The notes under the pieces: generated by a model
Databases searched by the model: none
Told to the model about the DNA's origin: nothing
What the model saw: the letters and a program-made list of their open reading frames with translations, nothing else
Program-made: the position numbers and the translations under genes
Part shown: piece by piece, positions 10,283 to 12,906 of the stretch
Numbering within the stretch: the first letter of the stretch is position 1
Layout of the letters: the number at the start of each line of letters is the position of its first letter
From: Chlorops oryzae
Lineage: Eukaryota; Arthropoda; Insecta; Diptera; Chloropidae
Direction: 5' to 3'
Assembly: GCA_020466095.1 (NCBI GenBank)
Contig: CM035807.1
Location: 52,666,752 to 52,730,751 of the forward strand
Length of the DNA: 64,000 bases

Positions 10283-11020
10283 TTATTCTTGATTTTTATC
10301 GGTTGGCAGGTAATGAATGGACAATGCTTTTACTAAAAAGTTGTAGTGTTGGATGCAATTGACGGCATGCGCTCGCTCTTGGCGAATTTTATTTATTATT
10401 TTTCGAATGTTGTATTTCAGACCTGCTGTTAGAGTGTCAATGGCTATGTCCAGCGCAATCAGTGTGCCGGTTCGGCCGACGCCTGCGCTACAATGTATGA
10501 CCATTTTTGAATATCTATTTTTATTTTCATAGATTTTTTGCTGTGCTTTTATCTGTAACCAGAAAATTAGTAGAGCATATGTATTTGGTGTGCCGTTATC
10601 GGGCCAACCTGTATATTGCCAATGATTGATGATTCTTGATTGTTTTGTTTTCAGATTTTTCAATTCTATTTGGGATTTAACACTTTTTCTGTTCACTATT
10701 CTGTCTAAAGTTTTAACATTGAAGTTTTCTGTTTTAATTATGTCATTTCTTCTCTTTCCCCAATATTGGTAACATTTTTTCTGCTCATGTTCAAGGACTT
10801 TCGTTAGCATGGACCCTGTGTTGCAATGTATTCTTTTTTTCTAAAAAACCCATCAACATAATTGGCGTGAATGTAGTCCTGCTTATGTCTGTTAGGTAGT
10901 TTCACCCTACTGTGATCAAGACAGGGGACATTTGAATATCTGTTTTTTGGGTTGTTTTTTAGGAAATTTTTTATGTTTGCTTGGTCCACTAGTTCTGGGA
11001 GAGTGAAATATTCTTCCGCA
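10283..11020 (-). pseudogene. Classical protein tyrosine phosphatase domain, one deletion (E2-B)
   Basis: A nearly complete ~240-residue PTP domain following integrase. In order: EEYFTLP (about 11000-11020), KNRY, DHSRVKL, YIHANYVDG, YIATQGP, [64-bp deletion at about 10810], MLTKVLEHEQKKCYQYW, a GWPDNGTP loop (about 10590-10620) with the general-acid Asp, and the P-loop HCSAGVGRTGT (10467-10499) with catalytic Cys and Arg, then QERAHAVNCIQHYNFL. The deletion removes DFWxMIW and shifts the frame; E2-A keeps it. Active-site residues are otherwise intact. Similar PTPs are known in insects as receptor and cytosolic enzymes and as captured genes in bracoviruses. Downstream it is followed by the Env-like remnant. 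Confidence 0.9.
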
Positions 11021-11151
11021 ACCTTTTCATCGTTTGAAATTATTCTCTCATGATTACACTTTTCCGTTGGTGTTGTTACATGTTCTACGATATACGTTTT
11101 CTCCTTTTTACTTTGGTCTAATTTTATCAAATTTTTGTGGTAGGTTTTCTT
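11021..11151 (-). pseudogene. Linker between integrase and PTP (E2-B)
   Basis: Open segment from the integrase C-terminus (YHKNL...) to the PTP start, in the same frame as pol except for one TAA (about 11152-11154, AAA to TAA relative to E2-A). It carries no motif I recognise. Confidence 0.6.
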
Positions 11152-12906
11152 TTATCCCTTAATAAGTAATCGTACATTTGCCGGAGAAGGTATGGAAATT
11201 ATTTGAAATGGTCCCTCCCAAATGGGTGAAAATTTATTTTGTCTATTTTGATTTTTTAACCAAACTTTATCTCCTATTTTGAACTTTCTTTCTTTTGAAT
11301 TTTTGTCATAATATATCTTTGACTTTTCTTTTGCAGATTTTTGATTTTGTCTAACAATTTTATAGCTTCTTTGAATTTGGTACTTCAAAATTTTGCTATA
11401 ATCGTCGGGATTATACAAAGGACCCGGTTTATGCTTTAATTTAATTGGAATTTCGAAATCGAAGCCTAAAAGTGTTCTACTGGGTGTTTGTTTTGTGGAT
11501 GAATGTATTGTGTTGTTATGCACGTGCATAGCGTGGTGCAACCATTCATCCCAATTCGTGCCATCCTCATTGACAAAATTTCGAAGGAATTCCGCAAGGG
11601 GCCGGTGACTTCTTTCAAGAGCACCATTGGCTTGCGGGTGGTATGGCGAAGTTTGCGATTTTTTAATGCCAAGAATTTTGCAAACTTCTTGAAATAAAAC
11701 GGAAGTAAAATTTGTACCATTGCCTGTTATTAACACTTTAGGGATATTAAATTTGGCAATTATTTCATTAAAAAAGGCTCTTGCCACAGTTGATGCTTCG
11801 GCATCTGGTATGGCTACGCAAATGAAATATTTAGAAAAATCGTCTAAAAATGTAAGTATGTATTTATTCCCTCTTGATGAGAGCGGAAGCGGACCAACTA
11901 TATCCATGAATACTTTATCAAACGGTCTGTGGGGAGTATTGGTTATAGCCATAGGCAATTTTTCTACGCGGGAACTTTTATTCTTTTGGCAAAGTTGGCA
12001 TGAGTCTATGTAATCTTTTATGTGCTTCTGCATGCCTTCCCATTTAAATTGTTTTCTGACACGAAAGTATGTTTTCAAAAACCCTTTATGGCCTCCTATT
12101 GGACTGTCATGGAAAATTTTTATAATTTTTTGTATCTCTGTTGGATCCGTTATCACAACTGCCGTATCTTCGTTATAATTCTCACTCGGGCTTACAGTTG
12201 TTGACGTATCGAATTCTTCTGGTTTTGTTTTTGAAATTGATCTGGTTACTACTGCTATTGGTGTTTCTGAATTTGGGAGTCTACTTAGTGCATCTGCATT
12301 AAGGTTATTCTTTCCGGGTTTGTAAAGGATTTCAAAATCGTATTCTAAAAGTTTCAATCGAAAACGGCCCAATCTGGTATCTTGGTCTTTTAAATTCGCT
12401 ATGCCTTTAAGTGGTTTATGGTCGGTATAAATTTTGAAATGTTTGCCCAATAGGTATGTTCTAAAATTTTTAACTGCCCAAACTATTGCCAAAAATTCTT
12501 TTTCTATCGTGGAATATCGTTTTTCGGTTGCACTGAGTGCTCTACTGGCATAGTATATTGGCAGATCCTGTCCTGGCTCACCTTGCGACAATACTGCACC
12601 TAATGCTTCGTTGCTGGCGTCTGTTGTAAGAATAAATAACTTTTCAAAATCAGGATATTGTAGTATAGGGGGGCTTGTCACTGCCCCTTTCAATTTCTCC
12701 ATTGCGTCTTGGCAATGCTTATTCCAAATAAATTTCTCTTCTTTAAATAGTGATTCATGTTCTGCGCCCTCGAGTCTGTTTCGTAAAAAGGGGTCCTGAA
12801 TACCAAAAATAAATTTATTTTTTCCTAATTTCTGGTAGTCGTGTAGCAATGCTACTGCTTCAGTACGGTTCCACAATTCCCTAATAAGCTCTTCGGCTTC
12901 ACGCAA
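11152..12906 (-). CDS. Gag C-terminus / RNase H / integrase fusion ORF (E2-B)
   Basis: 584 codons, almost identical to 200-2191. The same Gag-to-RNase H junction and the same Asp-to-Gly change in the integrase core (GGC, 11722-11724) are present, so both predate the duplication. It ends at a TAA created by one substitution; E2-A reads through at this place into the PTP. The upstream frame is continuous with gag through one TAA. Confidence 0.88.
   Translation of the reverse strand: MREAEELIRELWNRTEAVALLHDYQKLGKNKFIFGIQDPFLRNRLEGAEHESLFKEEKFIWNKHCQDAMEKLKGAVTSPPILQYPDFEKLFILTTDASNEALGAVLSQGEPGQDLPIYYASRALSATEKRYSTIEKEFLAIVWAVKNFRTYLLGKHFKIYTDHKPLKGIANLKDQDTRLGRFRLKLLEYDFEILYKPGKNNLNADALSRLPNSETPIAVVTRSISKTKPEEFDTSTTVSPSENYNEDTAVVITDPTEIQKIIKIFHDSPIGGHKGFLKTYFRVRKQFKWEGMQKHIKDYIDSCQLCQKNKSSRVEKLPMAITNTPHRPFDKVFMDIVGPLPLSSRGNKYILTFLDDFSKYFICVAIPDAEASTVARAFFNEIIAKFNIPKVLITGNGTNFTSVLFQEVCKILGIKKSQTSPYHPQANGALERSHRPLAEFLRNFVNEDGTNWDEWLHHAMHVHNNTIHSSTKQTPSRTLLGFDFEIPIKLKHKPGPLYNPDDYSKILKYQIQRSYKIVRQNQKSAKEKSKIYYDKNSKERKFKIGDKVWLKNQNRQNKFSPIWEGPFQIISIPSPANVRLLIKG

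Follow-up and report, generated by a model that had tools for sequence, protein, structure and literature searches.

A classical tyrosine phosphatase domain fused to the Pol polyprotein of Ty3/gypsy elements in Chlorops oryzae

The DNA considered here, hereafter the window, is a stretch of 64,000 nucleotides from the dipteran Chlorops oryzae (assembly GCA_020466095.1, contig CM035807.1, positions 52,666,752 to 52,730,751 of the forward strand) that contains a gypsy-type long terminal repeat (LTR) element, designated E2, in which sequence of a classical protein tyrosine phosphatase (PTP) follows the integrase. E2 lies within another gypsy-type element, E1, and is flanked at both ends by GGTA; the E1 frame is open once the flanks are fused with a single GGTA, which identifies E2 as an insertion into E1. 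The LTRs of E2 are 98.7% identical across 447 bases and 99.3% identical across 269 bases (aligned pieces), and the 5′ LTR exceeds the 3′ LTR by 143 bases (Table 1). A preliminary description of the window, made from the sequence alone, held that E2 sits between LTRs with a clean target duplication and contains a classical PTP; the LTR pair with GGTA on both sides bears out the first point, and the matches to PF00102 together with the KNRY, WPD and HCSAGVGRTG motifs bear out the second.

E2 itself is a dead element. Its Pol lacks the protease and the reverse transcriptase (RT), the gag-like sequence passing directly into RNase H, and two lesions break its PTP, a TAA at 11152-11154 and a deletion or frameshift near 10810-10840. 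The claim that the integrase frame continues directly into the PTP therefore stands only in part: the same frame does reach the PTP domain, but the TAA and the frameshift interrupt it. A second copy at the window edge, E2-A, had been cited as showing the same join without a stop; this is so, but E2-A carries a frameshift just before KNRY. E2-A also shares with E2 a flank of 1260 bases of E1 sequence that is 99.4% identical; it is a segmental duplicate and not an independent insertion, and it was rejected as independent support.

Table 1. Position of E2, its parts and related elements in the window
Feature	Position	Strand	Remarks
E2, LTR element	6999..15255	(-)	within E1, another gypsy-type element; target site duplication GGTA at 6995-6998 and 15256-15259
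E2 5′ LTR	14410..15255	(-)	846 bases
gag-like frame	12991..14019	(-)	343 amino acids; no Pfam match above cut-off
gag-like piece leading straight into RNase H and integrase	11155..12987	(-)	Pfam RNase H and integrase; lacks protease and RT
linker and N-terminal PTP part (KNRY)	10807..11151	(-)	PF00102, E 3e-17; integrase frame after TAA 11152-11154
C-terminal PTP part (WPD, HCSAGVGRTG, QHY at Q-loop)	10286..10840	(-)	PF00102, E 2.3e-37; shifted frame
env C-terminus stub with hydrophobic segment	9795..10220	(-)	142-amino-acid frame
C48/Ulp1 protease, broken, two frames	8659..9425	(-)	9129-9425 just below Pfam cut-off; 8659-9021 above
E2 3′ LTR	6999..7701	(-)	703 bases
E2-A, segmental duplicate of E2	1..4595	(-)	truncated by window edge
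E3, related element	34602..36785	(+)	RNase H-integrase 78% identical to E2 (amino acids)

The arrangement recurs throughout the 442-Mb genome. A profile search with PF00102 returned 596 candidates, of which the best 150 were used; at least two of these 150 are ordinary host genes (L001, Lar-type, and L002, another receptor-type PTP). Forty places (L009-L048), ranked 9 to 57 among the best 150 of 596 less nine on small contigs, were taken with 3 kb on each side. An integrase lies upstream of the PTP in all 40, and in 14 of them a single open frame of at least 1236 amino acids (aa) runs from the edge of the piece through the PTP. Frames of at least 1500 aa hold 33 of the best 150 PTP matches (in two of these the match itself spans a counted stop) and frames of at least 1000 aa hold 46, the Lar gene among them. 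In the three places scanned (L029, L022 and L030), the Pfam domains RT, RNase H, integrase and PTP follow one another in that order. Similarity to env was found 3′ of the PTP in 21 of the 40 places, seven of which have frames some 500 aa long; the 21 include three copies of the family of E2 (family F) that hold a C-terminal stub only. A Baculo_F-type env after pol scores above the Pfam cut-off in L029 and L015 and just below it in L016, and such frames behind the PTP fit the gypsy/errantivirus-like character first ascribed to E2. A gene for a C48/Ulp1 protease lies downstream of the PTP in six of the 40 places; with the best 150 matches each of PTP and C48, 18 of the 150 PTPs are followed at 1.4-5.1 kb by a C48 on their own strand, and within 6.5 kb none was found upstream or on the opposite strand (0/150 in each case).

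Separate insertions are evident from paired TG..CA LTRs. A search with the E2 LTR gave 1191 candidates in the genome, 40 of which were scored, and six same-strand pairs beyond E2 were examined. Exact 4-bp duplications (CCAC, GAAG, ATAC and AGCT) flank four of the six, each of which encloses a listed PTP, so that with E2 included there are five PTP-bearing insertions with a clean duplication. At one further pair TGTG is duplicated only after a one-base shift, and this pair has a C48 and no listed PTP inside. The further pairs span 10-26 kb, and some therefore probably hold additional inserts. Of the 15 copies of family E (L023-L025, L027, L028, L030, L032-L035, L037, L039-L042), 14 show no similarity to env or C48 in the 3 kb that follow the PTP; the exception, L039, has env similarity. 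Five differences separate L023 from L024 in 3708 bases of pol-PTP; such near-identical copies are consistent with recent movement or with local duplication, and some families probably moved recently.

Fusions of the same kind are found outside this genome. With the integrase-PTP part of L030 as a query 1662 hits were obtained, of which the best 120 were examined. Among these are two proteins from JGI metagenome contigs, P0121 (1789 aa) and P0122 (1622 aa), in which Pfam finds RT, RNase H, integrase and PTP and which match L030 at 46-47% identity over 99% of the query; in both, a protease motif (VDSGSDTSLL) can be recognized by eye. In P0243, a 362-aa ENA fragment, a PTP is joined onto the integrase C-terminus. 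A scan of IMG/VR with the PTP alignment A1 gave 48 pattern matches, none of which was confirmed. The integrase upstream in 40 of 40 places, the four further LTR pairs with target duplications and these outside fusions agree with the earlier statement that the element carries the PTP as cargo and that this is not a host gene hit by a transposon. Other copies of the E2 type do carry the PTP, as the further PTP-enclosing LTR pairs attest, and no intron-bearing host gene stands at the E2 site, the intron-bearing Meg2 gene of the host lying elsewhere.

A phylogeny of the PTP against host and bracovirus PTPs, as had been suggested, was built from 65 PTP domains. Retroelement PTPs, cellular PTPN9 and one bracovirus PTP with its kin occupy one side of a branch (95/80), and a Lar-type receptor PTP origin was rejected by the approximately unbiased (AU) test (p 0.0004 with the retroelement PTPs held with the Lar-type sequences). 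Sequence scores against the PDB place Lar/PTPRS first, because two-domain chains add two hits. A structure model of L048 (predicted local distance difference test, pLDDT, 84.7) finds its best structural match in PTP-MEG2, with a template modelling (TM) score of 0.88 and a root-mean-square deviation (rmsd) of 1.6 Å, and an L..EY pattern ahead of KNRY is common to the retroelement PTPs and PTPN9. Phylogeny, model and pattern point to PTPN9/Meg2 as the closest cellular kin of the retroelement PTP.

The Meg2 gene of the host is located at C3:26634782-26635621 and has introns. Its exons are 65-84% identical to a PTPN9-like protein of Megaselia, and with introns read through it is 65% identical to this protein versus at most 57% for six other proteins compared; for the listed retroelement PTPs, identity to the Megaselia protein is 39-48%. 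Meg2 carries an N-terminal CRAL-TRIO/Sec14 lipid-binding domain, for which no Pfam hit was found in L029, L022 and L030, where the integrase precedes the PTP instead. The retroelement PTP thus resembles PTPN9/Meg2 in its catalytic domain, in the stretch before KNRY and in structure, but differs in having neither the lipid-binding domain nor introns and in being fused to Pol.

Placing all retroelement PTPs in a single clade was not rejected (AU p 0.228), a result that agrees with one capture and does not show one capture. In integrase trees PTP-bearing and PTP-less elements are interleaved, with three changes, and a strict clade of PTP-bearing integrases was rejected (AU p 0.0001 with outside proteins, p 0.003 without them). 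The PTP may have been gained once and then lost in places, gained several times, or exchanged through recombination. In the integrase tree families B and D are sisters, in the PTP tree they are not, and a PTP tree constrained to unite them gives a borderline result (AU p 0.057). By synonymous divergence (L015, L029, L022 and L048), Pol looks like a mosaic in which family B is like F in the RT, like D in the integrase and like neither in the PTP, which suggests recombination between lineages. Among the retroelement PTPs also fall the one bracovirus PTP and PTPN9-like proteins from Cydia and Cotesia (98/93), on long branches; the opposite grouping of the bracovirus PTP, with cellular PTPN9, was not rejected (AU p 0.077). 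A broader scenario, in which the lineage would ship an active Meg2-type PTP as the tail of Pol, swap modules by recombination and form a pool related to, or the source of, the PTP virulence genes of bracoviruses, is quite unlikely.

The active site of the PTP was surveyed at 46 loci (L003-L048, counting near-identical copies). Both P-loop residues, Cys and Arg, are present in 46 of 46 loci and the WPD-loop Asp in 45, and the Cys and Arg are invariant across deep lineages, outside proteins included. From these residues the PTP is predicted to have been retained catalytically intact across deeply diverged lineages. Ratios of nonsynonymous to synonymous differences (pN/pS) summed over the PTP are 0.19 in family A (5 copies), 0.31 in B (4), 0.24 in C (4), 0.40 in D (6) and 0.21 in E (14), with L013, L038, L042 and L044 among L009-L048 left out of the sums; these values indicate that the PTP is under purifying selection in five families, A-E. 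Between families, the corresponding divergence ratio (dN/dS) is 0.09-0.25, taken only from those pairs whose dS is finite (and mostly near 2).

The architecture, its recurrence, the separate insertions, the conserved active site and the purifying selection in five families are probably best explained by an env-bearing Ty3/gypsy lineage that has a captured PTPN9/Meg2-type catalytic domain as the C-terminus of Pol and in which this domain acts as an enzyme. The Pol polyprotein of this large lineage, of which E2 is a dead member, has the order RT-RNaseH-integrase-PTP, with a protease motif ahead in two outside proteins, and the catalytic domain would have been captured without introns and without the N-terminal domain of Meg2. 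Being the C-terminus of Pol, the PTP would be made at the level of Pol and would probably be packaged in the particle and delivered along with the integrase, from which the protease perhaps cuts it off, and it would then act enzymatically in the producing cell or in the next (germline) cell. Candidate targets are membrane traffic or receptor signalling, at steps under phosphotyrosine control; crystal structures exist of Meg2 with NSF and MUNC18-1 phosphopeptides (structure titles), which makes membrane traffic the first guess. Host signalling or invasion of the germline may be affected, as raised in the preliminary description.

Several observations weigh against an enzyme retained by the lineage in this way. 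The Q-loop Gln is present in 43 of the 46 loci and is His in all three F-family loci, E2 itself reading QHY, and family E has HCAAGIGRTC and WAD. In family F (3 copies), differences summed over pairs are 0 synonymous and 10 nonsynonymous, so that no recent constraint is shown for the family of E2; the comparison across copies proposed at the outset shows constraint in families A-E and does not show it in F. Most dS values between families are saturated, the sample of 40 places, drawn from the top-ranked matches, is skewed to intact copies, and an LTR pair at C1:90.6 Mb with a PTP inside has no target duplication. By Pfam, no PTP match was found after the integrase in E3, and P0123 and P0125 are pol hits with no PTP domain listed, as judged from the protein records alone; these relatives suggest that the PTP may be dispensable.

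Chromoviruses carry a targeting chromodomain at the integrase C-terminus, and since the PTP occupies the same place, it could be an integrase-bound targeting or tethering module that binds a phosphotyrosine protein without enzyme action. Besides this position, directly after the integrase C-terminus, the uneven spread of the copies (on C1-C3, none of the 131 listed PTP places lies within the first 35 Mb of a contig) would suit such a role, but the spread possibly reflects just loss from gene-rich arms, and the WPD Asp and the P-loop Cys have been kept though needless for mere binding; tethering is unlikely. It is likewise improbable that the PTP is a structural component of the particle or an entry aid of non-enzymatic nature, as PMC3320614 reports for the PTP of the baculovirus BmNPV. 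That insect-virus precedent speaks for it, as do the altered P-loop and Q-loop of families E and F; against it stand the conserved catalytic residues and the selection in families A-E. A neutral passenger hitch-hiking behind Pol would account for relatives without a PTP match and for the lack of a synonymous excess in the family of E2, but is very hard to reconcile with pN/pS values of 0.19-0.40 in five families and with a P-loop Cys and Arg that do not vary even in outside proteins. That a transposon struck a PTP gene of the host, or that the join is an error of assembly, is hinted at only by the broken state of E2 and is refuted by separate insertions with different duplications, by the fusions in outside records and by the intron-bearing host Meg2 elsewhere.

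Elements carrying the PTP are like the env-F gypsy elements of insects (errantiviruses, or insect endogenous retroviruses, iERVs) in their LTRs, 4-bp duplication, RT-RNaseH-integrase order and Baculo_F-type env after pol, but unlike these they append a PTP to the integrase, and some copies add a C48/Ulp1 gene. It is known that gypsy elements acquire extra domains, that the PTPs of polydnaviruses (bracoviruses) are separate genes carried on packaged DNA circles, and that the baculovirus PTP belongs to a different PTP subclass. Bracovirus PTPs, according to PMC3573978, share with the retroelement PTP a single captured domain and a large gene family, but are not fused to Pol, whereas the retroelement PTP is Pol-fused and lies between LTRs. 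The baculovirus PTP is comparable as a host-derived phosphatase reported as a virion component (PMC3320614), but it is a separate gene of a DNA virus; bracoviruses, named earlier as the known insect precedent for PTP capture, hold as such, with the baculovirus PTP as another. Enzyme capture by gypsy elements is already on record in PMC9289625, where an orchid Ty3/Gypsy element bears an AlkB demethylase, likewise a captured host-type enzyme and active in vitro; it differs in being from plants, in forming an additional open reading frame (ORF) and in being an RNA demethylase.

Titles and abstract beginnings of the matching literature listed, a scope that leaves subscription papers mostly outside, hold no description of a PTP-carrying LTR element, and within that scope the view that PTP capture by a gypsy/errantivirus-like element is undescribed is upheld. 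The word "phosphatase" is absent from the main texts of PMC12992720 (insect endogenous retroviruses), PMC11952523 (sORF2 elements), PMC6338049 (accessory domains) and PMC13172572 (PIWI-interacting RNA, piRNA, defence). If the enzymatic reading is true, an integrase-fused signalling phosphatase that is catalytically kept would be a new route for a retroelement to act on the host cell. It would make testable the idea that phosphotyrosine signalling or membrane traffic is reprogrammed by insect endogenous retroviruses as they spread to the germline, and a mobile PTP reservoir could explain the repeated capture of PTPs by insect viruses.

The env stub of E2 is 95.8-97.2% identical to the F-family copies and about 44-66% identical, by aligned piece, to where env frames of other families end. 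Within the family of E2, all that is left of env at different places (9795-10220, L045, L046 and L048) is a short frame containing a single hydrophobic segment, which resembles the short transmembrane sORF2 proteins described in PMC11952523. C48/Ulp1 proteases are common in the genome (513 candidates, the best 150 of which are mostly distant from the listed PTPs), and a far stronger match at C3:45475548 is perhaps the host's own gene.

E3 forms part of a tandem array (29548-59811) with a period of about 14.8 kb. RT, RNase H and integrase domains were Pfam-checked in its second unit (49416-51599), whose gag-like frame is 34% identical to that of E2, and a C48 is found in E3 at 42092-42757. Both units of the array carry the same nested non-LTR retrotransposon (37458-41502 and 52272-56317). 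An Rfam scan of the window gave 0 matches. At 61516-62187 the window holds a DDE_Tnp_4 transposase frame (PF13359, E 6e-23), which is presumably Harbinger-like.
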